64,000 nucleotides of DNA from a virus (IMGVR_UViG_3300028394_000059:1-64000), one strand, 5' to 3'. Positions 1-14,345 are shown, numbered from the stretch's first letter. Program-made: numbers and translations. Notes: generated by a model not told the origin, from the letters alone.

Positions 1-243
1 GTTTGGGAGTCGCTTAATGAAGGCCATAAGCAATCAATTATTGCTCAAGGAAGCTTCTATAACTTAGACACAACTTACCAGATCAGAAATTTCTGGTCAA
101 CACGTCAACTTGGAACTAAAACTGTTGGAGTTCAAAAATTGGACGAGAATGAGAATACCGCTCAACAATCTACACAGGCTTATTCAAATGATTATATGAA
201 TTACATAGCTTCAGCTTTAGAGCAAAAATTCTCAAGAAGATAA
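1..243 (+). CDS. C-terminal 80 residues of a head gene upstream of the major capsid protein (partial)
   Basis: Frame 1 is open from the first base and ends with TAA at 241-243, giving an 80-residue C-terminal fragment. The fragment is polar, rich in Gln and Asn, and ends in a short basic tail (FSRR). It ends 27 nt before the major capsid gene. In T4-like genomes that slot belongs to the prohead scaffold (gp22) or to another head-assembly gene, so a scaffold is a reasonable guess. The fragment itself carries no motif I recognise. An LDE-N sequence near the middle would fit the prohead-protease rule (L/I)xE. The start lies outside the window. Confidence 0.7.
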   Translation, partial: VWESLNEGHKQSIIAQGSFYNLDTTYQIRNFWSTRQLGTKTVGVQKLDENENTAQQSTQAYSNDYMNYIASALEQKFSRR

Positions 244-270
244 AAACAAATAAAAAAAACAACTAATATC

Positions 271-1974
271 ATGAAATTGATTAACGAACAAGAAATCTAT
301 GATACCTGGTCTCCGATTATCGAGAGCAAAGCAGGAATCACTGATTCAAACAAAAAAGAGTGGTTGACTAAATATTGTCACTATCACTCATTAAACGAGT
401 CTGCCGGAGCATATAACTCATTAGGAGTTGTTAACGGTATGGGCGCAGTTTCTCCCCCATTATTCCCAGGAATGAGTTCATTTACGGGTAATGCTAATGC
501 AGGTTTTTATAACGCAGCAAACAGCGGATCTGGAGATAAATTCCCTTCATTATTACCTCTAGCAATTCAGGTTGCTGCTAAAACAATCGGTTTTGATATC
601 GTTCCAGTTATTCCTATGTCAGGTCCTACAGGTATCTTATCTTACTTAGATTACGTATACGCAGGTGGTAAAACTTCAGGTGCTACTTCAGCTACAGCTG
701 GTGACAGTTTAGCTAAAGCTCCTGCAATGATTAAATTCCCAGTTTATCAAAGTGCTGCAGGAACTGGTGTTACTGGTGCTACTGCAGGTACATTTACTGT
801 TGGTACTTCTTACACAGTTACTAATGCTGGTGTTTTAACTTTGCTCTTTGTCGGTCTTTCAAGAATTGATGGTTTCCCAATCTTTGAAATCACAAACATT
901 ACTGACGGTTATAATGTAGCTCGTATCATTAACGGAACAGCTGCACAAGTAGGTTCTACTGGATTCTACACTGGTGCTTCTTCAGTTAATTTTTCAGCTC
1001 AATTGGTTAAAGCTTTAGAAGATCATATTCAAGGTTTCTCTGGTGCTGGTTTCAATGACACGAATGATTGGCAAGGTCCTTACGTAGATGGTACTAAAAC
1101 TTACAACCCTATGTTAAGAGGAGTTGGAGAATCTACTTACTACAACTCAATGGGTCTTTCGACTTTCACTAAGTTCGTAGAAGCTGAAACTTTCCAAGTT
1201 GCTGCTTCAGTTACAACTGAGCAAATCCAAGATCTTAACAAACAATTCGGTATCGACGTTATTTCAATGATCGAGAACGCATTGGTTAATGAGGTTTCTC
1301 AAGCTATCAACAAGCACATACTTTCAAGAGCATTCGCTTTAGGTTGGTCTAATCACACAACATTCAGCAACGTAGAAAACCAAAACTTGAACTTGAACTT
1401 AATAATTAATGGTAGTGCTGGTACTACAACATCTTATATTAACAAATCTGACAGTAATGTCTCTATGCAATTACCTGCAGGTCCTGCTTCAACTAGCTAT
1501 GAGAACTTATCAACTCTACAAAGAAGATTGTTCTCTAGAATTCTTGCAGCTGGTAACGTAGTAGCTAACAGAGGTAGAAGAGGTCCAGCTAACTTCATCG
1601 TAACAAACGCTGCAGTTGCAAGTGCACTTCAAGATATCTCTCAGTTCACTTTCGCTCCATTCTCTAACACTTTAACTCAAAATAACGGTACTTTATACCC
1701 TGTAGGTTCTCTTGCTGGTATGACAGTTTATGTGGATCAGAATATGAGCTACAGCGATACAAGAGTATTAGTTGGAAGAAAAGGTGGTGATGACGAACCA
1801 GGACTTAAATTCATGCCTTACATGATGGCAGAGTCTATCCAAACTATCAGTGAGGGTACGATGAGTCCAAAAATAGCAGTAAAATCTAGATATGCTTTAG
1901 TTGAAGCTGGTATGTTACCTGAAACTATGTACTTAACATTCTTTGTTAACGTACCTACTGGTGGTTTAGCATAA
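271..1974 (+). CDS. Major capsid protein, T4 gp23-like
   Basis: This 567-residue protein forms the hexameric shell of the head. The region around residues 95-130 (SLLPLAIQV, FDIVPVIPMSGPTG) matches the gp23 pattern of a helix followed by a strand and the PM-GPTG loop. Residues about 310-355 (EAETFQVAASVTTEQIQDL) match the gp23 segment before the E-loop and spine helix. The C-terminus (MSPKIAVKSRYALVEAGMLPE) matches the gp23 ending with its conserved KxRY. T4 gp23 has 521 residues, so the size fits. T4 gp23 loses its N-terminal 65 residues to the gp21 protease; here a good (L/I)xE site is LNE at 41-43, followed by Ser. Codon choice is noticeably more optimised (GCT, GGT, ACT) than in neighbouring genes, as expected for the most abundant virion protein. 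A strong terminator follows. Confidence 0.93.
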   Translation: MKLINEQEIYDTWSPIIESKAGITDSNKKEWLTKYCHYHSLNESAGAYNSLGVVNGMGAVSPPLFPGMSSFTGNANAGFYNAANSGSGDKFPSLLPLAIQVAAKTIGFDIVPVIPMSGPTGILSYLDYVYAGGKTSGATSATAGDSLAKAPAMIKFPVYQSAAGTGVTGATAGTFTVGTSYTVTNAGVLTLLFVGLSRIDGFPIFEITNITDGYNVARIINGTAAQVGSTGFYTGASSVNFSAQLVKALEDHIQGFSGAGFNDTNDWQGPYVDGTKTYNPMLRGVGESTYYNSMGLSTFTKFVEAETFQVAASVTTEQIQDLNKQFGIDVISMIENALVNEVSQAINKHILSRAFALGWSNHTTFSNVENQNLNLNLIINGSAGTTTSYINKSDSNVSMQLPAGPASTSYENLSTLQRRLFSRILAAGNVVANRGRRGPANFIVTNAAVASALQDISQFTFAPFSNTLTQNNGTLYPVGSLAGMTVYVDQNMSYSDTRVLVGRKGGDDEPGLKFMPYMMAESIQTISEGTMSPKIAVKSRYALVEAGMLPETMYLTFFVNVPTGGLA

Positions 1975-2019
1975 GCGTAATTCAACTTTAGATTTTAATT
2001 AATTTACTGTAAATAATAA

Positions 2020-2047
2020 AGCTCCAGTGAAACCTGGAGCTTTTTTT
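2020..2047 (+). terminator. Intrinsic terminator after the capsid gene
   Basis: An 8-bp perfect stem (AGCTCCAG / CTGGAGCT) with a 6-nt loop is followed by a run of seven T. It lies 46 nt after the capsid stop codon and separates the capsid gene from the homing endonuclease. Confidence 0.88.
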
Positions 2048-2054
2048 GATGTAT

Positions 2055-2063
2055 GATATATAC
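2055..2063 (+). promoter_or_regulatory. GATATATA motif, candidate late promoter
   Basis: GATATATAC lies just after the capsid terminator and 22 nt before the ATG at 2086. The same 8-mer precedes nine other genes in this window. It overlaps the alternative upstream ATG at 2053, which argues that 2053 is not the real start. Confidence 0.5.
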
Positions 2064-2085
2064 AATAAAAGATATATTTGGACAC

Positions 2086-3852
2086 ATGGAGCATTCTAAC
2101 GAATTACAATTACTGATTACTACCTTAATAACTTGCAGGGACACTGGAAGAAGTTCAACTGGGGAGTTTACTAGAATGAGAGGAAATATTACTCTCCTAT
2201 CCGAAATTAATATACTTACTGAATATCTTGATTATTTATATGATAATATAGAATTGGGTCAGAGATTATATCATCTCAGAGAAGGTATTTGTGATATTCA
2301 GTATTGTGGATGCTGCAAATCTGAGGGTCGTAGCATTGGTAGAAAATTCCACAGACTGAGCACGGGATATTTTGCAACCTGTGGTTCTAATGAATGCAAA
2401 AAGAAAACTAAAGTCGAATCATTTAAGACAACAATAGAAGAAAAATACGGGGGAAATTATTTCGGAGAAGGTTCTATAGCTAGGGAAAAATATAAATCCA
2501 CAATGCTAGAAAAATATGGTGTTGAACATAATTGGAAACCTGGTGAATTAAGAGATGTTGGCGAAACAACAATGCTTGATAGGTATGGGGTTAAGCATGC
2601 ATTATCCGATCCTGAAATGGTTAAAAAAAGAAATGCAACGTGTATTAAACGACATAATACGGTGGATTTTTTAAACTCCATAAAATCAAAAGAAACAACA
2701 TTAGCTAGATATGGAGTAAATAATGCTATGCAAAATAGTGAAGTTGCTAAGAAAGTTTCGGTGTCGTCATCAATAACAAAACAAAAGATGTTATCAGATA
2801 AGCTAGCTCCTTTTAATATAAATCTTATTGATTATAATTCTATTAGATCTAAATTTTTATGTAACAAATGTTCAACATTATTCGACAATCATCCAGTTAC
2901 CATAAATCATAAGATTAGAATAGCATCCGATCCCTGCACTAAATGTAATCCACCAAGTCTCACCTCATCGATGTCGGAGAATGAATTTTCAGATTTTATT
3001 AGCAGCATATATTCTGGACCTATTAAAAAAAATGATAGAAATCTTTTTAAGACAAATCCAAGGTTTTCTGAAGTCGATGTATATTTGCCTGAATTAGGAA
3101 TAGCTTTTGAATATAACGGTTTATACTGGCATTCTGAAATGTATAAATCCCCGACATACCATATAGAGAAAACGCAGCATCTATTAGGCAATGGCATAAA
3201 ATTATTCCATGTTTGGGAGGATGATTGGTTATATAAAAAAAATATAGTAAAATCTATGGTTTCTTCAATTCTTGGAAATTCCATTAGAATATATGCAAGA
3301 AAATGTAAAATTAATTATGTTACTTCTGCAGAGTATGTTAAATTTTCTAAGGAAAATCATTTAAAAGGTTATTCGACTGCAAGTAAAGTAATAGGTCTAT
3401 ATTATAATAATGAATTAATTTCATTAATGAGCTTTTCAAAGACACGTAAATTGATAGATTCAGGCAATAGCATATATGAATATGAATTAATAAGAAGCTG
3501 CACAAAAATGAATTATTCTGTTATTGGTGGGGCCTCCAAACTTTTTAATTTTTTTGTTAATAACATAGGTAAATCACTGGTAACTTATTGCGATGTATCA
3601 TTTTCACCAGATTTAATGGGTACTGTTTATAATAAATGTGGCATGAAATATTTGAAGCTAACTAGCCCGGGATATTATTGGGTAATAGACGGAAAGAGAT
3701 CAAATAGATTAAACTGGACAAAACAAAAATTGGTTGATGCTGGTTATTCACCAGAGAAAACTGCGGATCAGATTATGTCAGAACTTGGTGCTTATAAAAT
3801 ATGGGACTGCGGAAATCATAAATTTTCTATGATATTTAATGAAAAAATATAA
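2086..3852 (+). CDS. Free-standing homing endonuclease, EDxHD (Vsr-like) type
   Basis: A modular protein of about 588 residues. A Cys-rich treble-clef-like ribbon comes first (Cys at about 69, 74, 76, 77, 99 and 104). It is followed by four or five YGV-type repeats (EKYGV, DRYGV, ARYGV) of the kind used as DNA-binding modules by phage homing endonucleases, and then a second CxxC/CxxC ribbon. The nuclease domain spans about 295-385: ENE, then EVD (329-331), YWHSE (His349) and VWEDDW (376-381). This is the pattern of the EDxHD family related to Vsr mismatch endonucleases (type member I-Bth0305I). A further C-terminal domain of about 180 residues (GLYYNNELISLMSF, YYWVIDGKRSNR) has no function I can assign. 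The frame is also open from an ATG at 2053. I chose 2086 because 2053 overlaps a promoter-like motif and alignment with the second endonuclease starts well downstream. The gene is flanked by terminators, as expected for an invader next to a conserved late gene. Confidence 0.88.
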   Translation: MEHSNELQLLITTLITCRDTGRSSTGEFTRMRGNITLLSEINILTEYLDYLYDNIELGQRLYHLREGICDIQYCGCCKSEGRSIGRKFHRLSTGYFATCGSNECKKKTKVESFKTTIEEKYGGNYFGEGSIAREKYKSTMLEKYGVEHNWKPGELRDVGETTMLDRYGVKHALSDPEMVKKRNATCIKRHNTVDFLNSIKSKETTLARYGVNNAMQNSEVAKKVSVSSSITKQKMLSDKLAPFNINLIDYNSIRSKFLCNKCSTLFDNHPVTINHKIRIASDPCTKCNPPSLTSSMSENEFSDFISSIYSGPIKKNDRNLFKTNPRFSEVDVYLPELGIAFEYNGLYWHSEMYKSPTYHIEKTQHLLGNGIKLFHVWEDDWLYKKNIVKSMVSSILGNSIRIYARKCKINYVTSAEYVKFSKENHLKGYSTASKVIGLYYNNELISLMSFSKTRKLIDSGNSIYEYELIRSCTKMNYSVIGGASKLFNFFVNNIGKSLVTYCDVSFSPDLMGTVYNKCGMKYLKLTSPGYYWVIDGKRSNRLNWTKQKLVDAGYSPEKTADQIMSELGAYKIWDCGNHKFSMIFNEKI

Positions 3853-3918
3853 ATATCAAAAAAATAAAATACAGGTTCTGGTGGATGGTCATAAATACTA
3901 ATATTTCCTTTTAAATTA

Positions 3919-3949
3919 AAGTTCAAGTTTATCTAGGACTTTTTTTTTT
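3919..3949 (+). terminator. Probable intrinsic terminator after the endonuclease gene
   Basis: AAGTTC (3919-3924) pairs with GGACTT (3936-3941) with one G-T wobble across an 11-nt loop, followed by a run of T to 3949. The stem is weak but the T-run is long and the position, 66 nt after the stop codon, is right. Confidence 0.6.
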
Positions 3950-3956
3950 GTTTGAC

Positions 3957-3965
3957 GATATATAG
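3957..3965 (+). promoter_or_regulatory. GATATATA motif, candidate late promoter
   Basis: GATATATAG follows the T-run of the terminator and lies 26 nt before the ATG at 3992. It would start the head-protein transcription unit 3992-8879. Confidence 0.5.
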
Positions 3966-3991
3966 ATAGTAAAAAAACAAATTGTGAGTAT

Positions 3992-5146
3992 ATGAAAAAT
4001 ATCCCTTCATTTAATGAATTTAAGAAATACGAGGATTTACTTGAGAAAGCCGATCGTTCTTTAGTTCAGGAGTTAGTAAATATAGAGAAAGCAGATCCGT
4101 ATCATTCGGTTAACGAAGGTCATGTTATGAATGTTCTTAAGAATACACTTTCCAAATTTTTTCTTGGATCCATGTCAAGAATATCGATGATCGACGAAGC
4201 TAGAAAAATCATATTAGATCTGGAGCTTGATATAATTGAAAAAAAGGATCAATTCGAAAAAGATATAGAAGCACTAGATACAAAAATATCTGAGCTATCT
4301 AAAATCGGTGAAAAAGAAAAGATAGTAGCATTAGAAAAGGAAAGAGAGGCAAAGGCTAGAGAAATCGAAACTTATCTTAAAGCTCAAAAATTAAAGATAA
4401 GAAAATCTAAGGAAGTTGCTAGTAAACTAGTGGACAGTAATCCTAGGAGAAGAGAATATCTTGAGGTTGGTTATTCAGAGGATGCAATAGCAATTGCTGA
4501 ACTTGAATATGAGTTAGCCAAAGATAGAGCTGAGGATCAGACCAAACTAAGAGATTATCTTGATAAAATCAAAAAGACTAAAGATGATGCTGAAGATAGA
4601 GCAAGGGATTTTAATGCTAAAACCGAAAAGGAAGCTAATAAGGACAAGGACGAAAACAGGGAAGATATCACTGTTGATCCGGAGAAGGAAAAAAGAAAAA
4701 TTGCAAGCAGAAAAGGTAAAGATTTAATCCAGAGAAAAAATGAACTCGAAAAAGAGATTGTTGATATCAGATCTGATATTGAAAGAAAATTAAGCCAATT
4801 TGAAGCCAAGGTTATAAAAAGTCCTAAAACAATCAATGGCAAGTATATTGAGGTGATCAAGATAGAACTCCTGGAGATGAGTTCAGCTCTTGACGCTAAA
4901 GAGAATTTACTGAAAGCATTTAGAGAACTTGGTAAGGGTGAGGATGAAATAACTAAAGTCCTAAGTAAAGAAAGCGATTTCACAAAACTTGCTAACAAGA
5001 TAAATCAAGGAATAGTTGATGGCGCCGATGCAAATTCTGGAACTAAAAAAATTATAAGTGATCTTTTCTCAACAATAGGATCCGGAGCTACCCCGACTGT
5101 TACTCCTCAGAATATTAAAAATGCTAAATCTAAATTAAACAAATAA
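3992..5146 (+). CDS. Putative internal head protein with capsid-targeting peptide; coiled coil
   Basis: 384 residues, very rich in Lys, Glu and Asp. Long heptad-like helices run from about residue 65 to 150 and 165 to 290. The N-terminus has an F-x-x-F signature (FNEF, 7-10) ending in LLE at 16-18. This resembles the T4 capsid-targeting sequence, where the prohead protease cuts after (L/I)xE. Four other genes in 3992-14345 open in a closely similar way and one more, at 6324, opens with a looser version, so I infer a protein packaged in the prohead core and perhaps ejected with DNA. It could instead be a scaffold-like core protein, given its coiled coil. It is the first gene after a candidate promoter, and its stop codon is directly followed by the ATG of the next gene. 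No enzymatic motif is visible. Confidence 0.8.
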   Translation: MKNIPSFNEFKKYEDLLEKADRSLVQELVNIEKADPYHSVNEGHVMNVLKNTLSKFFLGSMSRISMIDEARKIILDLELDIIEKKDQFEKDIEALDTKISELSKIGEKEKIVALEKEREAKAREIETYLKAQKLKIRKSKEVASKLVDSNPRRREYLEVGYSEDAIAIAELEYELAKDRAEDQTKLRDYLDKIKKTKDDAEDRARDFNAKTEKEANKDKDENREDITVDPEKEKRKIASRKGKDLIQRKNELEKEIVDIRSDIERKLSQFEAKVIKSPKTINGKYIEVIKIELLEMSSALDAKENLLKAFRELGKGEDEITKVLSKESDFTKLANKINQGIVDGADANSGTKKIISDLFSTIGSGATPTVTPQNIKNAKSKLNK

Positions 5147-6049
5147 ATGACACTTAAATTTAAAGAATGGGATGCTCTAAATGAGACCAATGTTTTTGAT
5201 AAGATTAAGACATGGTTTAGTAGCAATTTTGGTGGTGCAGTAAGCAAATTGGAAGGTTTACTTAGTGATTATAGATCTGCAGAGTTAGAATATGTCGATG
5301 AGTGGCAAGAAATTGCTGAAGAAATGGATAAGCTTGATCTTGAAAGAGAACAAACAAAAAGCGATCCTGCGGAGCTTAAGAAAATAGAAAGATACATTCA
5401 AAGAAATCGTGAGGTCTTAGCGAATTCAAAAAAAGCACACTCCAAGAAAATAGATTACATGATGAATGTGGTTAGAGATGTTATAAGTGACAATAGCAAA
5501 CTTAGAAATTATTGGGAAATGAATAAAGCTAGAGTTGATGCTGATGTTTCTGAAGAGATGTATAAGAGATCTAAGAATATTGCTGATCCGCTCTTTTCTG
5601 ATGGATTATATGACAAGTACAAAGCTGCTGTTTTGCTTGCAAAGAAAAAAGATACTGAATTTAGAGAAAAATATGGGGATCTTATGGGATCCGCTAAAAA
5701 GCAGGAAGTAAAATCTGCATCAAAATCAAATTCCGTGCAAGCTAATGAGGCATCCATTGATCTTTATATGACAATGTCGCTTTCCGATTTTACTGAATCT
5801 GTAGCTGATATGGAGCCAGCACAAGCTAAAGCTTTGGCATCTTCGTTGACTAAGAAAAGAAACGATCTGTATACCGAAATGGAGATGGAAAGAGAAGCTT
5901 TGAATGACGCAATCTCTAAAAAGACCGGTATAGGAGCAAACAGAGATGATGCTGCTAAGAAGATTAAAGAGATAAGAGAAAAGTATATGGAAGCTATCCG
6001 TGACTTAAGATCTAAAATAACAATAGCTAGAAGACGTGCTAATGCTTAA
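5147..6049 (+). CDS. Putative internal head protein with capsid-targeting peptide; helical
   Basis: 300 residues, mostly charged helix, with likely coiled coils at about 45-115 and 225-300. The N-terminus carries FKEW (5-8) and then LNE at 11-13 followed by Thr, a clean (L/I)xE cleavage site of the T4 prohead-protease type. A second SLSDF motif is present near residue 210. Its ATG directly follows the TAA of the preceding gene and its end overlaps the next start by 8 nt, so the three are translationally coupled. It probably works with its neighbours in the head core. The precise role is unknown and no catalytic motif is seen. Confidence 0.8.
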   Translation: MTLKFKEWDALNETNVFDKIKTWFSSNFGGAVSKLEGLLSDYRSAELEYVDEWQEIAEEMDKLDLEREQTKSDPAELKKIERYIQRNREVLANSKKAHSKKIDYMMNVVRDVISDNSKLRNYWEMNKARVDADVSEEMYKRSKNIADPLFSDGLYDKYKAAVLLAKKKDTEFREKYGDLMGSAKKQEVKSASKSNSVQANEASIDLYMTMSLSDFTESVADMEPAQAKALASSLTKKRNDLYTEMEMEREALNDAISKKTGIGANRDDAAKKIKEIREKYMEAIRDLRSKITIARRRANA

Positions 6050-6314
6050 TTATAAACAATTCATATTAGGTGAAGCCGAAACATCGGATAACACAAAGGC
6101 TCAGACAATTAAACTCGAGCTTTCTAAAAAGTTTGATGAGATTTCTGAGGCAAAGAAATTAAAAAAAGAGGGAGATCCTAATTCGGAAATAGCTAGTATA
6201 GATAAACAATCTGCAATATACATAGAGATATCTGCACTGATGAAATCACTTTCTACTGAATTAAAAAGTAATGCAGCTAATAAAGATAGTGGCGGATCAA
6301 CCAACATATATTAA
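6042..6314 (+). CDS. Small putative internal head protein with capsid-targeting peptide
   Basis: About 90 residues from the ATG at 6042. A GTG at 6036 would add two residues, but the ATG leaves the targeting signature at the very N-terminus. That signature is YKQF (4-7) followed by LGE at 9-11 and Ala, matching the (L/I)xE rule. The remainder is a charged helix (two Lys/Glu-rich stretches) with a Gly/Ser/Asn tail. It overlaps the preceding gene by 8 nt and ends 9 nt before the next. Size and architecture recall the small T4 internal proteins IPI-IPIII, but there is no sequence match I can claim. Confidence 0.78.
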   Translation: MLNYKQFILGEAETSDNTKAQTIKLELSKKFDEISEAKKLKKEGDPNSEIASIDKQSAIYIEISALMKSLSTELKSNAANKDSGGSTNIY

Positions 6315-6323
6315 AAAATCAAG

Positions 6324-8879
6324 ATGATGAACAAGAACCCGTATTTAAACAATCCAGTAGCAAGATCTTTATTTGAAAGTTATAATGATATAATTTTTGA
6401 AAATGAGAAGGTTGATGCACTATTAAACAAGATATCCGATAATGCATTGGATGCTTTTAAGGTTTTAACTTTTGATCTAGCACCAGCTAGAGATAGAAAT
6501 CCGGATATCATGAGGGTTAAACTTTCTGATATTAGTAATTCAAAGAATGTTAAAGAACTAACTGCAAAATTATTGGATTATGCTGATGATAACGATTTAG
6601 TTAATCCAAAATACGCGGAAGCTAAAAGATTATATCTACAAGCTCTCGGTAAATTAGGGGATGCCCTAAATAGAGCTTCTGAGATAGCTAAGGGAAAGGA
6701 TGAGATAGTTTTAAAATCCTTCAGAATTGCTCCAATGAAGTTGCAGAATTCACTCGATAATATAGCTAAGCAAGCCGAAGAGGAGCTTAAATTAAAAAAG
6801 ACTAATGAATCATTGTTTATTGGGAATAGTTCGTTAAACGAGTCTATATTCACTGGCTACAGAGGAAGAATCGAAAATCTTAAAAAGCTTCTCACAAATC
6901 TAATAACATCATCGGAGGGTAGGGATCAGAAAAATGGTTACGGAAGAGATTGGAAAAGAACTTTCCTTGATCTTGATGAAAAAAGAAAGGTACTTGACAC
7001 GACAAGAGGTGGATTTGGAGAAAAAGACAAATCAGCATTATCTGATCTGGAAAAGCAAGTTGAAAAATTCCAGGATGATTTTAATAAATCTGTCGTGCAG
7101 GCTGCTACAAGATCTCTACAGAATTTAGAGGATGATGAAGAAGTTTACACTTCATATTCGGATGTTACTGAATTAACAAATAGTGCATTGGATCTTTTAA
7201 CCAGAGCAAAAACACAATATTCTTTAGCTGCTAAACAAATTAAGGATGATCATGAGGTTGAGGAAAATAATATGGTTAAAACTATATTCCCTTTAAAAAG
7301 GGGTGATACTGATGCTGATAAAAAAATAAAAGGAAGCGGATTAATATACGCTGTACAAAGTGCTTTAGTTAATGGTATACCATCGGCAGGAAAACTTATT
7401 AAATCTAAAGGAGGACCTAATGGTAAATATGGTCCAGCAACTAGTGCTGTTATATCAACCATTCAGAAGATGGAGGGTAATAAAAATACCAACGGCGAGC
7501 TAGATAAGACTCTTTTGGACGATATCCTTTCATCTGATTGGGTTGCTGAAAAGGATAAGAAGGCAATTGAAAAATCACTTCAGGTTGTTAGAGTTAAAGT
7601 AAACGAAAGCTTTAGTTCTGTAATGAGCATTTCAGATTTTTCTAACTCCTTGAATGAAGGTAAAATAGTTATAAATAACTCGGAATTTGAAAAAGAACTC
7701 GGTACCCAATATAAAAATGTTGCTGCTCTTTCCCCACCAGATAGTAAAAAGGGCGAGACTTACGAATCACCATCCAAAGGTGGATCATCATCGGGTGTTA
7801 AAGCTTTAGCCAAAAGTTTAAGAGAGGTTTATAATCTAAAAGTTGAAGAGGAGAATTTTGTTAAGCAAGATGGAAGCTTGAAATCTTCTTATAGTCCACA
7901 GTTTATCAAAGCGTGGAATTCAACCCTGGATGGAATAAAGAAAAATTCAGCAAAAGAGGATTATTCATATTTCTTTTTCTCTGGTGGTATCTATAATGTA
8001 AACATGTCATCCAGCTCACTAAAAAATCCATGCAACTGGAACAAATGGGCTGATGTTAGAAGCATAAAAACATTAGGTAATGATGATTCTGTAGATTTTG
8101 TTGAGAATTATCTGAAATCATGGAAAACATTTGGTATGATCAGACCTGATGCTAGATATAGCGGTATTAGATCCCTATTGAATTCTAATGCTGAAAACAG
8201 CGATCTTGATCTTGCTGGAGCTTACGAGAGAATGTCAGTATCAATAAAAAATAAAAGTATTCCATTTATCGACTATGATAATCTTAAAGGCGATGTAGCA
8301 AAAGCATTTAACCAGGCATTACAAAAGAGTGAGAAATCACCAGATTTGGGTATCGAAGAATTTGTTGCTATTAACAACTTCCTGATAATGGTTGCAAATG
8401 CTGTTTCTTTTGATGGAAGCAAATTTATAAGCTGCGTAAAATGGATACATGACAATGTATTAGGTGAGGCAACAGCAAAAAGAATAAGCGACGACAAATA
8501 TTTCACATTCAGTATGGATGATACAAATAAGGATAGCGGAAAATTATTAGGATTCGATGGATCAAGTATAGTGATAAGCAATGTTGATAAGATATGTGGA
8601 CGTAGAATTGATAAATCAGGAAGTATAACTGATGATCTTGTCGGCTTTAAATCAATTATCGCGGAGGGAAATTCAGGTTCAGCTGATGTCAGAAAGGCAC
8701 TAGGTACAAATTGCTACTATATAGCTGCTGACATATACCCTAGTATCAAGACGCATATAAAAAGAATGAATGCAACAAACTTCGATCAGGTTCCTCAATT
8801 CAAACCTTTTAAATGTGCAAACTATGATGGAGGTGAAGCTAAAGTATCTAAGCCATCCGGACCACTAGGAATTAGATAA
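6324..8879 (+). CDS. Large head-associated protein with peptidoglycan-binding-like segment and internal processing sites
   Basis: 851 residues. The N-terminus has several candidate cut sites (LFE at 16-18, then IFE). Two more sites lie inside: LNE-Ser at 171-173 and LNE-Gly at 443-445. The second is preceded by MSISDF, so it looks like a complete targeting peptide embedded mid-protein. Between them, about residues 335-400, is a segment resembling the PG_binding_1 fold (GKYGPAT followed by AVxxxQ). The C-terminal half (about 490-850) is globular with four or five cysteines and no motif I recognise. Inference: a fused or polyprotein-type internal head protein, possibly ejected and acting at the cell wall. 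It ends the transcription unit begun at 3992, with a strong terminator after it. An ATG at 6327 is an equally possible start. Confidence 0.8.
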   Translation: MMNKNPYLNNPVARSLFESYNDIIFENEKVDALLNKISDNALDAFKVLTFDLAPARDRNPDIMRVKLSDISNSKNVKELTAKLLDYADDNDLVNPKYAEAKRLYLQALGKLGDALNRASEIAKGKDEIVLKSFRIAPMKLQNSLDNIAKQAEEELKLKKTNESLFIGNSSLNESIFTGYRGRIENLKKLLTNLITSSEGRDQKNGYGRDWKRTFLDLDEKRKVLDTTRGGFGEKDKSALSDLEKQVEKFQDDFNKSVVQAATRSLQNLEDDEEVYTSYSDVTELTNSALDLLTRAKTQYSLAAKQIKDDHEVEENNMVKTIFPLKRGDTDADKKIKGSGLIYAVQSALVNGIPSAGKLIKSKGGPNGKYGPATSAVISTIQKMEGNKNTNGELDKTLLDDILSSDWVAEKDKKAIEKSLQVVRVKVNESFSSVMSISDFSNSLNEGKIVINNSEFEKELGTQYKNVAALSPPDSKKGETYESPSKGGSSSGVKALAKSLREVYNLKVEEENFVKQDGSLKSSYSPQFIKAWNSTLDGIKKNSAKEDYSYFFFSGGIYNVNMSSSSLKNPCNWNKWADVRSIKTLGNDDSVDFVENYLKSWKTFGMIRPDARYSGIRSLLNSNAENSDLDLAGAYERMSVSIKNKSIPFIDYDNLKGDVAKAFNQALQKSEKSPDLGIEEFVAINNFLIMVANAVSFDGSKFISCVKWIHDNVLGEATAKRISDDKYFTFSMDDTNKDSGKLLGFDGSSIVISNVDKICGRRIDKSGSITDDLVGFKSIIAEGNSGSADVRKALGTNCYYIAADIYPSIKTHIKRMNATNFDQVPQFKPFKCANYDGGEAKVSKPSGPLGIR

Positions 8880-8900
8880 TAATATACAATGTAAATTGCT

Positions 8901-8928
8901 AAGAGGATCTGAAAAGATCCTCTTTTTT
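8901..8928 (+). terminator. Strong intrinsic terminator
   Basis: A 10-bp perfect stem (AAGAGGATCT / AGATCCTCTT) is closed by a GAAA tetraloop and followed by a T-run. It closes the head-protein transcription unit. Confidence 0.92.
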
Positions 8929-8953
8929 GTTTTTATTAATCGCGATCTTTTAT

Positions 8954-8961
8954 TACTTTTG
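8954..8961 (+). promoter_or_regulatory. Possible host-type promoter (TAnnTTTG)
   Basis: TACTTTTG fits the Bacteroidota -7 element TAnnTTTG, and a TTTG at 8926-8929 could be the -33 element. The spacing of 24 nt is longer than the usual 19-21, so support is weak. It lies 42 nt before the kinase start, where no GATATATA motif is present. Confidence 0.25.
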
Positions 8962-9003
8962 TACCTGTAATGAAAACAAAATCTAATAATTGATATAATT
9001 TAT

Positions 9004-9585
9004 ATGGTATACGTATTTGAAGGACCAAGAAATTCAGGAAAAACATTCCTCTCTAAATTTATAGCTGAGAAATTTGACATGCCAAGGTATCAGTTTGCCT
9101 TTGCTGATTATTTTTCTAAACTTAATCTAGAAAGTCGAAACAGTAGAGAAGCCCATGCTTTTGCTATGGGTAAGGAACTTATGCTTATGCAGCTTTTTAA
9201 AGATCTCGATCCCTGCAATTATTTAACTGATCCATTCTCTTTCATACACGATCGCGGGATTCTTACTGTTCTTGCATGGGGAATAATGGAAGGTAGAATA
9301 ACTGAAAGTGAAATGGATGATCAGGTCAAGATGATTAAACAGATGGGATTAATGGATGAAATCTCCATTATTTTCATAACTGGTGACAATCCGAATAAAG
9401 GTGATAGGAATAAAGACCAGTGGGATCGCATAGATGGCGACAACGGAGAGCTTGAATCATACGATAAAGTTATTTCAAAATTCGAAGAATATGGAATAGC
9501 AAAAATCCATAAATTTACAAATAGATTCGATGACGAGTCTCTTACAGATATTACATTAATGTTTGAAAATATATTATTCGATTAA
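9004..9585 (+). CDS. P-loop nucleotide kinase (deoxynucleotide/thymidylate kinase-like)
   Basis: 193 residues. The N-terminus has a Walker A motif, GPRNSGKT, at residues 7-14, directly after the first strand. A DRG (residues 82-84, FIHDRG) sits where thymidylate and deoxynucleoside kinases have the DR-S/G substrate motif. Length and layout fit a small nucleoside or nucleoside-monophosphate kinase. Several large phages encode such an enzyme to enlarge the dNTP pool. The substrate cannot be told from sequence. The gene sits 2 nt before asparagine synthase, so the two are probably co-expressed from the promoter region after the 8901 terminator. Their position inside the head and tail cluster is unusual for metabolic genes. 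Confidence 0.8.
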   Translation: MVYVFEGPRNSGKTFLSKFIAEKFDMPRYQFAFADYFSKLNLESRNSREAHAFAMGKELMLMQLFKDLDPCNYLTDPFSFIHDRGILTVLAWGIMEGRITESEMDDQVKMIKQMGLMDEISIIFITGDNPNKGDRNKDQWDRIDGDNGELESYDKVISKFEEYGIAKIHKFTNRFDDESLTDITLMFENILFD

Positions 9586-9587
9586 AT

Positions 9588-10994
9588 ATGTGCGGAATAC
9601 TATTAACTACTAGGGAAAAAATAAAACCATCTATTCTTGATTCTATTAAGCATAGAGGAATAGAAAGTTCTAAGGAATCGCTGGATGGCGTAACACTATG
9701 CCATCATAGATTACCTATACAGACTTTGGATGGCGATGAATGGAAACAACCAATAGAAATATCCGACGGTGTTTTTCTTATGTTCAACGGGGAGATTTTC
9801 AATTATGATTCCGCTTTATTTTCTTCAGATACTGAATACCTTTGTAATCTTTTTGCAAACTTCAAAGGTGGAAATCTTGAATTTTTCTCTGCGATGTACG
9901 TTCCGCATATAGTTAAATGGGATGGATTTTGGGCCATAGTTATCTATGATAGTAAAAGCGGTAATGTAATTTCATTCACTGATCCACTTGGTAAGAAGTG
10001 TTTATATCGTAACGAGCTTGGTGAGATTTGCTCGGAAATAAAAGGACTTTATACGGAGCTTTCTGATATAGATCAGATCTTCATAAGCTCAGTTAGAAAA
10101 TGGGGATATAACAAGGACAATAGAACAGCATACACCAACATAAAAAGGTTATTACCAAATAACATATATTCACACAACATAGCTTCTCCTATGTTTGAGA
10201 GCATTTACCCTGATTATTATAGAGCGTGGAATCTTCCAATACCTGAACTTAAGGGTGCAGATTACGAAACTCATATTGAGTGGTTATGGGAGAAGATGTT
10301 TGAAAGTGTTGGTAATAGACTTGCATCTAGAAATTACCCAATATCAATATTGGTATCTGGCGGACTTGATTCGTCAATAATTGCAGCGATTATAAAGGAG
10401 ATGGATGCCAAGGTTACCTGGTTTACAATAGAGAACGGAGAAACCCCATTTGTTAATGATTTAAGTGCTCATTTAGACACGCAAGCACATTTTCTGGACT
10501 ATACCATGGATTCTGATAAAAACGGTCTTATATACGCCCAATGGAATGAAAGTCCAATAGATCTTGGATCTGTGATACCACAATACCATTTATTTGAGGC
10601 AATCAGGAAGAATACAGATTACCGTATAGTTATTAGCGGGGATGGATCGGATGAGCTATTTGGTGGTTACTCAAGAATACATGAGTATGATTCACAGAAA
10701 TCTGATATCTTTGAAGAGCTTCCATTCTATCATTTACCTAGACTTGATAAGATGTCTATGGCTCATACATTGGAGCTAAGAAGTCCTTTTTTAAATCTTG
10801 ATATAGTGAGATTTGCTATGCACCTTCCCCTTGAATGGAGAAAAGACAAGAAGATTCTTAAAGATACTTTCGGACCTATGCTTCCCGAATCGATAGTGAA
10901 TAGAAAAAAAGAGGCTCTTAAGAATCCTGAGATTAAGAATGATAAATTGGCATATAGACAAAAAGCAGTTGATCTATTCCTTTCAATAGCTTAG
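9588..10994 (+). CDS. asnB: Asparagine synthase, glutamine-hydrolysing (AsnB type)
   Basis: 468 residues. Cys2 is the class II glutamine amidotransferase nucleophile (the protein starts MCGI). HRG at 22-24 and the FNGEIFNY motif complete the glutaminase site. SGGLDSS (257-263) is the PP-loop that binds ATP, and SGDGSDELFGGY is the conserved synthetase motif. LELRSPFL near the C-terminus is also typical. Bacterial AsnB has about 550 residues, so this is a compact but apparently complete enzyme, converting aspartate, glutamine and ATP to asparagine and glutamate. A role in modifying another carboxylate cannot be excluded, because phage and secondary-metabolite relatives vary in substrate. It is coupled to the kinase gene at 9004. 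Confidence 0.93.
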   Translation: MCGILLTTREKIKPSILDSIKHRGIESSKESLDGVTLCHHRLPIQTLDGDEWKQPIEISDGVFLMFNGEIFNYDSALFSSDTEYLCNLFANFKGGNLEFFSAMYVPHIVKWDGFWAIVIYDSKSGNVISFTDPLGKKCLYRNELGEICSEIKGLYTELSDIDQIFISSVRKWGYNKDNRTAYTNIKRLLPNNIYSHNIASPMFESIYPDYYRAWNLPIPELKGADYETHIEWLWEKMFESVGNRLASRNYPISILVSGGLDSSIIAAIIKEMDAKVTWFTIENGETPFVNDLSAHLDTQAHFLDYTMDSDKNGLIYAQWNESPIDLGSVIPQYHLFEAIRKNTDYRIVISGDGSDELFGGYSRIHEYDSQKSDIFEELPFYHLPRLDKMSMAHTLELRSPFLNLDIVRFAMHLPLEWRKDKKILKDTFGPMLPESIVNRKKEALKNPEIKNDKLAYRQKAVDLFLSIA

Positions 10995-11019
10995 GATTAT
11001 AATATTAGGATCTTACTTG

Positions 11020-11028
11020 GATATATAG
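11020..11028 (+). promoter_or_regulatory. GATATATA motif, candidate late promoter
   Basis: GATATATAG lies 19 nt before the ATG at 11048, in the short gap after asparagine synthase. Confidence 0.5.
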
Positions 11029-11047
11029 TTTAAATAAATTTACAAGA

Positions 11048-11719
11048 ATGTCAAAATTAAAAAAATTCGAAGATTTTTCTAGCAGTTCAGAAAATATACA
11101 GGAATCATTATTCGATGATCTAGGTGGTATGTTAGGTAAGGTTATTCCTTTTCTTGGTACAGGTCTTACTAAAACAATCAAACAAAAGATTTCTGCATCT
11201 TTACTTAAAAAGATAGGGATTAAAGAAAATTCAACTTTCTCCACTATAATTCAGGAGGTCGTAGATTCGATAGAATTAAAAGAAATGCCGGGATTATTAA
11301 CCGGAGAAAATGCAAATGCAGATTTTCTTGCTCCGAGATTAGCTCAAGCAGTTCAGGAGTACATACAAAGAAAAGGTTTGGATTCGCTGGTCGTTCCTTT
11401 AGGTATAGAGCCAAACGGATGGATGTATTCAACAATCAGAGAGAGCTTGCAAGGGGAACTAGGAAAGGAAAAATTAACTAATTTATTTTTAGGTGCTCTT
11501 GGATCAGATTCGATTGGAGCGGAAGCGCTTTCTAAATTAGATCCAAACAGTAAAGATCAACTTAAGGACACATTGGCTCAAAAACTAGCTAAGGAATATC
11601 CATATAAAAACAGCAGAACTGGTTCTTCTGGATCTAACTCATCCGGATCTGGAGGGGGTTTTTTTGACACGTTATCTTCAGTTTGGGACAGCTTTACGAG
11701 TGGAGCAAAAAATTCTTAA
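11048..11719 (+). CDS. Putative internal head protein with capsid-targeting peptide
   Basis: 223 residues. The N-terminus has FEDF (7-10) and then IQE at 17-19 followed by Ser, another (L/I)xE prohead-protease site of the kind seen from 3992 onward. A Gly-containing amphipathic stretch (about 22-45) comes next, then predicted helices with PGLLTGENA and PLGIEPNGWM loops. Near residues 194-206 there is a flexible Ser/Gly linker leading to a short FFDTLSSVW tail. The short hydrophobic C-terminal tail after a linker resembles a peptide that docks on a partner, such as the shell or portal, but that is inference. The gene has its own candidate promoter. Function unknown. Confidence 0.78.
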   Translation: MSKLKKFEDFSSSSENIQESLFDDLGGMLGKVIPFLGTGLTKTIKQKISASLLKKIGIKENSTFSTIIQEVVDSIELKEMPGLLTGENANADFLAPRLAQAVQEYIQRKGLDSLVVPLGIEPNGWMYSTIRESLQGELGKEKLTNLFLGALGSDSIGAEALSKLDPNSKDQLKDTLAQKLAKEYPYKNSRTGSSGSNSSGSGGGFFDTLSSVWDSFTSGAKNS

Positions 11720-11734
11720 TATAAAAATACAAAT

Positions 11735-12079
11735 ATGAATCAACAAAACGTAGCAAAGAGAGAGGTTTTAGATTTCGATAAATTTTTAACCAAAGTTCAT
11801 GACGATATTTATAAGCCATTTTCTGCAGAGAATCAAACTGCACAGCCAGAAAAAACCGGACTTTCTAAAATTACAAGAGAGCCAGCTTATGATTATGCAG
11901 GATATGCGGATTCTGTTTTCGGTAACCAATCAAAAATAGATGCTCCTGGATATAGAATAAATATGGGAAACGGTAAGGTTGGTATGGTTGACGCACCAGG
12001 TGTAGGCGGTATATTTAATACAGGAACTAATGAATCAGAAAATACTGATAACTTTATTAGAAGGCTAAGCGATTTTTAA
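11735..12079 (+). CDS. Small hypothetical virion-region protein
   Basis: 114 residues. Residues 11-18 (VLDFDKFL) echo the F-x-x-F signature of the neighbouring head proteins, but there is no clean (L/I)xE site just after it. The rest is low in secondary structure and rich in Gly, Asn and Ala, with a repeated Y-A-G-Y motif near the middle. It follows the 11048 gene by 15 nt and is closed by a terminator. Its product is probably a small virion or head component, but nothing specific can be said. Confidence 0.65.
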   Translation: MNQQNVAKREVLDFDKFLTKVHDDIYKPFSAENQTAQPEKTGLSKITREPAYDYAGYADSVFGNQSKIDAPGYRINMGNGKVGMVDAPGVGGIFNTGTNESENTDNFIRRLSDF

Positions 12080-12097
12080 TATAATCCATACGGAAAT

Positions 12098-12123
12098 AAA
12101 AAAGGAGCATTAAGCTCCTTTTT
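12098..12123. terminator. Bidirectional terminator between convergent genes
   Basis: AAAGGAGC (12101-12108) pairs with GCTCCTTT (12114-12121) across a 5-nt loop, with A-rich sequence upstream and T-rich sequence downstream. It can serve both the + gene ending at 12079 and the - gene ending at 12129. Confidence 0.85.
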
Positions 12124-12128
12124 ATGTG

Positions 12129-12854
12129 TTATGATACTGTTTCTATAAACTTTTCTTTTGCTAACTTGTATATTTCTGAATTCTCATCAAAATTCTCATA
12201 AATCTCTATCACGTGTAGTTCTGGTGACATTCTTTTTTCCGCTGCAAATTCTTCCAATATTTCGTGATAGATGTATTCATAGTTAAGTGAAAATATTTGG
12301 TTCTTTAGGTGTATTCTTTTAAGCACACATATCTCCTTATCACCATCCGCTGTTTTAAGAGTAACCGCACCTTGCCAGTAATACGATATGATTTTATCGG
12401 TTATCATATTTCTTACAACCAATATGCCAGAATTCTGTTTTTCTGTGCTGAATGAATTTATTTTTGAATTAACTCTAAATATTCGAATTTTAGATTCCTC
12501 TTGTTTTAATATCTCGAGACAAACCTCAGAGTATTCATATAGTGTCTCAAGGGATGATTCAACTATATCGATTATAGTGCTTTTATCTGAATCTGTTAGA
12601 TCATCGAATATAAACTTATTGACATAATCCCTTTCATCTTGTTTTATTTGACTTAAAACTCTGGAGCTTATTTTTTTATCATTCTTAAATTCATTTAGTG
12701 ACTTTATTATTTTGGAAACAGATCTTAGTGTCGAGTAGCAGTTATCAGAATTTAGATTCTTGCTGATTGATTTTAAATAATCAAGTAAAACGTATTCCTT
12801 GTGCTCAGGATCTATGGGATCCTTTATGAACCAAATTGGGCTTATATTCTTCAT
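12129..12854 (-). CDS. Hypothetical protein on the reverse strand
   Basis: 241 residues from the ATG at 12854. The frame is open two codons further to a TTG, but the ATG is preferred. The protein opens with SPIWFIKDPID and is helical and acidic over residues 20-120, with a more beta-like C-terminal half containing VLKRIHL and a HEILEEF helix. No catalytic or binding motif is recognised and no family is assigned. It is one of only two or three reverse-strand genes in the window. It shares a terminator with the + gene before it and diverges from the gene at 12941. Its orientation suggests separate, perhaps earlier, expression. Confidence 0.75.
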   Translation of the reverse strand: MKNISPIWFIKDPIDPEHKEYVLLDYLKSISKNLNSDNCYSTLRSVSKIIKSLNEFKNDKKISSRVLSQIKQDERDYVNKFIFDDLTDSDKSTIIDIVESSLETLYEYSEVCLEILKQEESKIRIFRVNSKINSFSTEKQNSGILVVRNMITDKIISYYWQGAVTLKTADGDKEICVLKRIHLKNQIFSLNYEYIYHEILEEFAAEKRMSPELHVIEIYENFDENSEIYKLAKEKFIETVS

Positions 12855-12915
12855 CTTCAAACTTTTTAAAAATCATACTTATCTTATATATTGGTATTAT
12901 AAAAATGTTACAAAA

Positions 12916-12924
12916 GATATATAG
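12916..12924 (+). promoter_or_regulatory. GATATATA motif, candidate late promoter
   Basis: GATATATAG lies 16 nt before the ATG at 12941. It falls inside the frame extended upstream from 12941, which supports 12941 as the true start. Confidence 0.45.
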
Positions 12925-12940
12925 ATTAAAAAATACTAAA

Positions 12941-13387
12941 ATGGGAAGAATATACGATTATAATGCCTTTGCGGATAATAAGAAGGGCGGTAATGGTAAC
13001 GAATATTCATTTGGCTGCGAGATAAAGTATGTTGATATAGATGTATTCGGAAAACCGGAGGAGTATGAAGAGCTTTCCAATTGCAAGGCATTTATCGAAT
13101 ATTCGGTTGATCTTATTATTAAAAGAGCTGGTATAGATTCTCTGATGTTTAAAGTAAATTCTATAGAATTTGAATTTGAGGTTGACGATTATCCAAACGG
13201 TACTAAAGAATTTGATATTGATCTGATCCCAGGTAAAACCGTAGACTATAGTCAGATAAAAACTGAAGTTCACGATAGCTCGGTACCAACATATCCAGAC
13301 AAGCTGGAGATTAATATGAATAAATCAACGGATCCTAAAAATTTCGATATCACGGTTTATTTCGGTAATGACGTTAAATACAGATAA
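12941..13387 (+). CDS. Hypothetical beta-rich protein
   Basis: 148 residues from the ATG at 12941. The frame stays open upstream (ATG at 12905, and further to 12836), but those starts would overlap the GATATATA motif or run into the divergent gene. The sequence is acidic and beta-rich, with alternating FEFEV and EFDIDLIPG strands and a Tyr-rich N-terminus. It ends one base before the next gene and is likely co-transcribed with it. No family recognised. By context it could be a small virion protein. Confidence 0.65.
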   Translation: MGRIYDYNAFADNKKGGNGNEYSFGCEIKYVDIDVFGKPEEYEELSNCKAFIEYSVDLIIKRAGIDSLMFKVNSIEFEFEVDDYPNGTKEFDIDLIPGKTVDYSQIKTEVHDSSVPTYPDKLEINMNKSTDPKNFDITVYFGNDVKYR

Positions 13388-13388
13388 T

Positions 13389-14345
13389 ATGAGAATCCTA
13401 AACTTCAATGATTTTAAAATAAACGAATCCGATGATACTGAGGACTACATTTCTGTTGACGGAATTAGACCCATAATGGATGATGGATATGAGATTTCCG
13501 CCGAGAATTTTTGTGATTCAGATAGAACATTTCCGATGGGATCTATTATAGTTACAAAGGACAATAACAGTTTAATAACTATAGCATTCTGCGGTAGTAG
13601 CGGAAAAATACAAAATGAGTTAAGTATACCTAAGGATTCTGTTGATATAAAAATTGATGACAATAATAATTATATAGTTACGATAGACCCAAACAGAAGA
13701 TGGCTAAATGTTACCGGAAATAGAGCAGCCATTGAAGATTTCATCGAGGATTTTACTAACTGCAAGATGGAATGTGACAATCGCGACATTAGAATGATTG
13801 ATGGGATAAAGGATGATGTTTATACAATATTAGATATTATAGGAATTCCGTATGACATAGAAAGCGCAGATAAAATGGATGACAACCAGTACGAGGTTAA
13901 GCTTGGAAATGGCATGCTCATTGATATTAAGAAAAGATCCAATAATGATATGGTTGGTAACTTCGATGTTTATAAGAAGCATGACGACTCACGTCCAGCT
14001 TTTTCGATAAATAGTGACAAGGGCAAAATGGAATTCTCGTTTGATTCTGATGATCTACCAACATCCGAGGTTGAATCCAATATAACTGATGTTAGTAAGA
14101 ATGATTATCTAAACTACCTGCTTAGAAAATCTCTGGGAATAGAAACACATTCTGACAAAGAAAGATTATACAAGCACTTTGTTGATAGTATAAATTCACA
14201 TGACCGTGATTATGCAAAATCTGACGATATAAAAACACAGGAGAGAGGAAAGAAATCTGCAGATTATATAAAATCATTAAAGAATATGGTATCCACATTT
14301 GTACCGGAAAAAAGAATATCAGAGGTTTACCATAATAGGGATTAA
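13389..14345 (+). CDS. Putative internal head protein with capsid-targeting peptide
   Basis: 318 residues from the ATG at 13389, one base after the previous stop codon. An in-frame ATG at 13368 would overlap the previous gene by 20 nt. From 13389 the protein begins with FNDF (6-9) and INE at 11-13 followed by Ser, the same targeting and cleavage signature as the 3992-11719 cassette, which also supports this start. The mature part is very acidic and beta-rich in the first 200 residues, then helical and basic near the C-terminus (KTQERGKKSADYIKSLK). No enzymatic motif is recognised. Inference: another protein carried in the head. A terminator follows. Confidence 0.78.
   Translation: MRILNFNDFKINESDDTEDYISVDGIRPIMDDGYEISAENFCDSDRTFPMGSIIVTKDNNSLITIAFCGSSGKIQNELSIPKDSVDIKIDDNNNYIVTIDPNRRWLNVTGNRAAIEDFIEDFTNCKMECDNRDIRMIDGIKDDVYTILDIIGIPYDIESADKMDDNQYEVKLGNGMLIDIKKRSNNDMVGNFDVYKKHDDSRPAFSINSDKGKMEFSFDSDDLPTSEVESNITDVSKNDYLNYLLRKSLGIETHSDKERLYKHFVDSINSHDRDYAKSDDIKTQERGKKSADYIKSLKNMVSTFVPEKRISEVYHNRD

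Follow-up and report, generated by a model that had tools for sequence, protein, structure and literature searches.

In bacteriophage T4, a short N-terminal capsid-targeting sequence (CTS) carries proteins into the scaffolding core, and the T4 internal proteins are the precedent for proteins that are delivered from the head (PMC3012670). Genetic work on the CTS of IPIII assigned targeting to residues 4 and 7, and processing to residues 8 and 10 (PMC9026906). In T4, the N-terminal sequence of IPI, IPII, IPIII and Alt (Mullaney and Black, 1996, cited through PMC9026906 and PMC3012670), 10-20 residues long and containing aromatic-x-x-aromatic and (L/I)-x-E, is combined with a gp21-family protease and a gp23-type capsid protein. 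The same combination is present in the virus described here, in which an aromatic pair followed by (L/I)-x-E opens a series of otherwise unrelated proteins, a gp21-family protease is encoded and the gp23-type capsid protein carries the same cleavage signature. Based on the evidence below, it is very probable that this N-terminal signature, hereafter the tag, is a capsid-targeting sequence functionally equivalent to that of T4.

The window, that is, the whole stretch of 64,000 bases analyzed, corresponds to bases 1-64000 of an 86,784-base phage contig from IMG/VR. Positions 1-3974 (+) overlap a second contig (L003/G026; 45,764 bases) with 100% identity over 3,974 bp, and this contig extends 41.8 kb upstream of the window. 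A gp23-type major capsid protein is encoded at 271-1974 (+; Pfam Gp23, 6.1e-41). The closest capsid proteins in GenBank, from uncultured huge phages and Prevotella Lak megaphages, are 45% identical; over 200 relatives are represented in IMG/VR, and the contigs of some measure 250-434 kb. The overlapping contig encodes, immediately 5' of the capsid gene and just beyond the left end of the window, a 646-aa protease-scaffold ORF (L003:8033-9973) with a Peptidase_S77 (gp21) domain (1.1e-7). Thus, the gp23-type capsid protein adjoins a gp21-type protease, as in a T4-like head module. Protease and scaffold form a single ORF in this virus, whereas gp21 and gp22 of T4 are encoded by separate genes. 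Since a gp21-type protease was also found in all 34 records of relatives searched, the original prediction, which depended on a prohead protease, does not fail for want of one. The capsid protein itself possesses a conserved NE site at E43 (HSLNE↓SAG, with the arrow marking the putative cut; E43 at least 97% conserved, n = 68 sequences), and the same local sequence is also seen at the ends of tags.

The original prediction named five proteins within positions 3992-14345, and all five N-terminal signatures are present where it placed them. The remainders of the proteins are non-homologous, as it had also claimed, with a best BLAST cross-hit of E 0.86 and assignment to separate clusters, and no significant family was found for any of the five in Pfam or PHROGs. 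The first protein (3992-5146, +) is rich in lysine and glutamate and possibly a core protein. Its tag (nt 3992-4117) has the aromatics F7xxF10, and 39 of 45 orthologues exceed the 1% tag threshold. The cut after LLE at E18, as first proposed, does not hold for this protein; the near-invariant glutamate is instead E42 (HSVNE↓G), one of nine near-invariant columns among 384 in an alignment of 46 sequences. The second protein (5147-6049, +) opens with MTLKFKEWDALNE↓T (nt 5147-5185; F5xxW8..E13). Taken alone, it scores below the matrix threshold described below; 51 of 53 orthologues pass the 1% cut-off, and F5 and E13 are near-invariant in 54 sequences. The third, of 90 aa (6042-6314, +), carries the tag MLNYKQFILGE↓A (nt 6042-6074; Y4xxF7..E11), which is found in 29 of 30 orthologues. 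The fourth (11048-11719, +) begins with MSKLKKFEDFSSSSENIQE↓S (nt 11048-11104; F7xxF10..E19), and F10 and E19 are two of only seven invariant columns in 32 orthologues whose mean column identity is 40%. An AlphaFold model of this protein was too poor to use (pLDDT 54) and was discarded. The fifth (13389-14345, +) begins with MRILNFNDFKINE↓S (nt 13389-13427; F6xxF9..E13) at a start codon 21 nt within the longest ORF, which opens at 13368. All nine distinct orthologue sequences from viral contigs are tagged, with F6 and F9 invariant.

Tags were sought genome-wide with a two-block matrix, consisting of an aromatic block and a Glu block, that was trained exclusively on the tags of other genomes and replaced an initial loose regular expression because the chance rate of the latter was high. 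The main threshold was set at a false-positive rate of 0.1% against a background of shuffled N-termini. At this threshold, the scan for additional tagged proteins that had been suggested at the outset was productive, yielding 10 tagged proteins in this virus vs 0.11 expected. Relatives G003, G010 and G006 possess 20, 32 and 34 tagged proteins vs 0.3, 0.4 and 0.5 expected, respectively, and windows opening at internal methionines stay near background. When every protein with a homologue in this virus was removed from the training set, about 6 tagged proteins were still obtained vs 0.11 expected, and those at 13389, 11048 and 3992 were again recovered. The initial count of at least five was therefore an undercount, as the rest of the contig holds further tags at 74138, 74676, 77689 and 78998 and weaker ones at 80845, 84125 and 85140, with one more upstream in the overlapping contig (L003:4371). 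Three tag-like hits, at 11735, 68160 and 16088, were rejected, either because conserved sequence runs through the putative site or because the protein resembles a sigma factor. The mature parts of the tagged proteins of the four genomes fall by BLAST into 78 non-homologous families, each with at least one strong tag. Their consensus is M-x-x-(I/L)-K-S-F-E-D-F-x(0-12)-L-N-E, with S, A or G after the putative cut, and the first aromatic is most commonly residue 7.

Similar N-termini could also have arisen from duplicated or recombined 5' ends of genes and have no current function. Recombination can carry short 5' segments from gene to gene, and such spread has been proposed for the internal protein genes of T-even phages. 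The aromatics and the glutamate, however, are near-invariant in orthologue sets of 30-54 sequences while the flanking residues and the linker length drift, and this conservation contradicts a model without function. A segment acquired by recombination may nonetheless be functional, and this explanation therefore bears on the origin of the tags only; as an account of what they do, it is extremely improbable.

Comparison with T4 provides further evidence that the tag is a CTS. Applied blind to 232 T4 ORFs, the matrix placed IPI (MKTFKEFTSTTTPVSTITE↓A, cut after E19) first and IPIII (MKTYQEFIAE↓A, cut after E10) second, while IPII and gp23 also scored above the 1% level. The targeting and processing residues of IPIII, Y4, F7, I8 and E10, are the motif positions of the tag. 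Together with the blind recovery and the presence of the protease, this coincidence with T4 genetics strongly supports the initial reading of the signature as capsid-targeting. In phage lambda, 0 of 71 proteins passed the 0.1% threshold. The tag might instead merely look like the T4 CTS and act in localization or stability without any relation to the capsid, for instance in targeting to a phage compartment inside the cell, and some of the tagged proteins of relatives, such as an adenylate kinase and an enzyme similar to CCA-adding enzymes, are plausible as intracellular helpers. This alternative is very unlikely given the blind recovery of IPI and IPIII with their exact cut sites and the match of the tag ends to both the capsid-protein site (LNE↓S) and the core of the scaffold array described below. 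The distribution of tags along the contig also argues against it, with none among the 43 genes of the tail and replication region (14.4-74.1 kb) vs 12 of the 31 outside it (P 6e-6), although both the boundaries and the weaker members of the list were fixed after the data had been seen.

The nature of the tagged proteins bears on whether they are cargo. In relatives, tags are found on an adenylate kinase (6e-37), a RimK-like ATP-grasp ligase (2e-32) and a PolyA/CCA-type polymerase (5e-37), as well as on a GDPD phosphodiesterase, CHAP and SLT peptidoglycan enzymes, and proteins with OmpA and peptidoglycan-binding domains. On the contig of this virus, a CHAP protein (78998) is tagged, and a ferritin (85140) and a protein with a HEMAH motif (84125) have weaker tags. 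The phage adenylate kinase aligns with solved enzymes from about its residue 24, which corresponds to their residue 2. As judged from this alignment, the tag is an extra sequence added to known enzymes. All 14 distinct adenylate kinase orthologues are tagged, and all 28 distinct RimK-like sequences open with a tag of the FLNE/INE type, 27 of them above the strongest threshold. For the ferritin, the alignment starts at residue 33; the extension preceding it varies, and 4 of 13 sequences pass the tag threshold. A ClpP-like protein of one relative was not counted as evidence because only one of its three orthologues is tagged.

These enzymes also bear on a third explanation, in which the first three tagged genes encode gp67/gp68-like core proteins that are cut and discarded, the other tags serve for docking to the core and nothing is delivered. 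The genes at 3992, 5147 and 6042 come soon after the capsid gene, the proteins from 3992 and 5147 are charged, apparently helical and coiled-coil-like by sequence, and the conserved Glu of the former lies 42 residues in; the products of these three genes could equally be prohead-core proteins. As an explanation for the tags as a whole, disposal with the core is unlikely. Globular enzymes such as adenylate kinase, RimK, PolyA polymerase, CHAP and GDPD are tagged as well and would be senseless as disposable core, and the T4 precedent is one of delivered internal proteins (PMC3012670). Of the suggestion that the tags mark an enlarged set of probably ejected effectors of unknown function, the enlarged set stands. 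The data do not support an ejected effector in every case, and many of the relatives' tagged proteins are recognizable enzymes and not of unknown function. An effector role is plausible for part of the tagged set, and enzymes that carry the tag, adenylate kinase for one, might additionally act inside the infected cell prior to packaging.

If the tag is a CTS, as is favored here, its aromatic-x-x-aromatic part would dock the protein in the prohead core, and a gp21-type prohead protease would cut after (L/I/V)-x-E to free the mature protein inside the head. The mature cargo would then be packaged alongside the DNA and probably passed to the next host, the ejection step being extrapolated only from the T4 precedent. 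The enrichment of tags, their conservation, the added N-termini of the enzymes and the occurrence of the protease and of a scaffold array were observed directly, and from them we infer docking, packaging and cleavage of the tagged proteins.

The scaffold half of the protease ORF offers a candidate for the docking partner. It consists of 13 tandem 14-residue repeats with the consensus I-S-Y-S-E-Y-L-A-E-N-L-D-K-G, spaced exactly 14 residues apart, vs 0.15 copies in shuffled sequences. The array was found in 53 of 53 relatives with 10-15 copies, and the Y/Y/E positions are about 100% conserved, a value that is partly by construction because the regular expression used to collect these relatives requires the aromatic and Glu positions. 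The unit, YSEYLAENLDK.., possesses the grammar of the tag, aromatic-x-x-aromatic-(L/I/V)-x-E, as does YQEFIAE of T4. The density of the core [FY]xx[FYW][LIVM]xE is 20 per 1000 residues in the scaffold and, in three relatives, 0.65-0.84 per 1000 in the first 40 residues of proteins vs 0.14-0.30 elsewhere; this 7-residue core is 4-fold enriched in N-termini compared with the remaining proteome (P 1e-9). The match is limited to the core grammar, as the full tag matrix gives a single hit in the array. In most tags, the aromatics and the Glu lie farther apart than in the scaffold unit, and the P2 residue of tags is mostly Asn vs Ala in the array.

Outside the immediate relatives, huge phages of 735 and 636 kb have 14 and 11 copies of the core, respectively, and one of 462 kb has two clear copies, in each case together with tags. 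PTm1 and Lak-B1 have no core copies and hardly any tags in the parts examined (0 of 57 and 1 of 154 proteins tagged), though both have gp21-type proteases; Lak phages were therefore set aside as a tagged capsid relative. A search of the T4 scaffold gp22 revealed no such array, and T4 has working CTSs, indicating that a CTS can function without the array. The association of array and tags, across few lineages and with T4 as the one exception, is suggestive. It may be that the tag mimics one scaffold repeat, so that cargo would enter the growing core as an extra repeat unit, and that the protease would release it by cutting the tags at sites of the type at which it digests the core. The mimicry step seems somewhat more probable than its absence.

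A further gene may extend this scheme. The 851-aa product of 6324-8879 (+) lacks a canonical N-terminal tag but possesses two NE sites, E173 (nt 6840-6842) and E445 (nt 7656-7658), the second preceded by the tag-like SISDFSNSLNE↓G. Both glutamates are invariant in 49 of 49 sequences, and the neighboring residues and linker lengths vary. This pattern suggests that the product may be a putative polyprotein cut at internal NE sites. The terminal piece, residues 446-851, is confidently predicted to form a compact domain (pLDDT 85.5). No function was inferred for it, since the predicted fold has no match in PDB or BFVD.

Taken together, these observations lead to a model in which huge T4-like phages load dozens of different proteins, enzymes among them, each bearing one mimic tag, onto a scaffold of YxxY(L)xE repeats for delivery to the host, with some of the cargo made as polyprotein. 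The evidence leaves this complete model evenly poised. If it is true, the head would hold a starter kit of metabolic and RNA- or protein-modifying enzymes that is passed on to the host. For huge phages that cannot be grown, head-carried proteins could be predicted from sequence alone, and a location could be assigned to dozens of unknown proteins. The predicted virion cargo includes adenylate kinase, a RimK-like ligase, nucleotidyltransferases and peptidoglycan hydrolases. The scaffold repeat would also provide a concrete and testable answer to the question of the CTS binding partner, to which the portions of T4 reviews drawn on here give no residue-level answer.

Several described systems share part of this arrangement. 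The ejection proteins of phiKZ and SPN3US likewise form a large internal set, many of them processed by a gp21-like protease after Glu, but their propeptides mostly exceed 100 residues, whereas those described here are mostly 10-25 residues with a common short motif (PMC5694885). The first 30 residues of DarB from P1 suffice to send a reporter to the head; a consensus among the Dar proteins was not found in that study (PMC9024508), in contrast to the clear consensus over 78 families found here. Moraphages and other huge phages of aquatic Bacteroidota are similarly large and aquatic, with a gp21-type protease, a portal and sometimes DnaK, and the portions of their description considered here mention neither tags nor a scaffold array (PMC12619734). 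No account of proteome-wide CTS use or of a scaffold array was found in the literature searched, which largely excluded subscription journals and preprints. Within that literature, the kind of system is known from T4, while its scale, enzyme cargo, putative polyprotein and scaffold repeat appear undescribed. Overall, the closest counterpart is T4 itself, whose scaffold differs in having no repeat array of this kind. The IPIII sequence MKTYQEFIAE↓A is nearly a consensus tag of this clade, but where T4 has a handful of tagged proteins, this clade has dozens in each genome, some of them enzymes from known families.

The 599-aa ORF at window 2053-3852, which separates the capsid gene from the tagged cluster, resembles a homing endonuclease when its sequence is judged by eye. 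This ORF also contains repeated finger-like 'YGV' units. The head-gene cluster further includes a gene that, judged by eye, encodes an asparagine-synthase-like protein (window 9588-10994), and this gene is adjoined by a P-loop kinase-like gene at 9004.

Beyond the window, the phage contig (G000) encodes a 153-aa protein at G000:81495-81956 (L001:18495-18956), whose residues 77-146 are similar to the capsid protein segment directly following the conserved NE site (E 5e-10). Relatives fall in one cluster with this protein. A 683-aa protein encoded between tagged genes (G000:75636-77687) possesses a cytidylyltransferase-like domain (8.9e-6), and by eye its N-terminal half resembles an RNA ligase. 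The contig also encodes a full-length DnaK/Hsp70 (G000:82146-84032; L002:146-2032; Pfam 1.4e-255), which is without a tag. Moraphages are among the phages for which a DnaK has been reported (PMC12619734).

On the overlapping contig L003, the 922-aa protein encoded upstream of the protease (L003:5195-7960) is possibly a further processed head protein. An internal tag-like sequence, VVSFSEFSKLNE|E, lies near its residue 100.

In Lak-B1 (L150, L151, L152), the N-termini of several proteins have a different pattern in common, LYxS(L/I)xxx(I/V)S..(K)KxLNE, which may be a tag specific to Lak phages. The scaffold of phage PTm1 (L255:43098-44867) possesses the repeat W(I/L)..DFTK.LSE, which is unlike the scaffold repeat of our own lineage.
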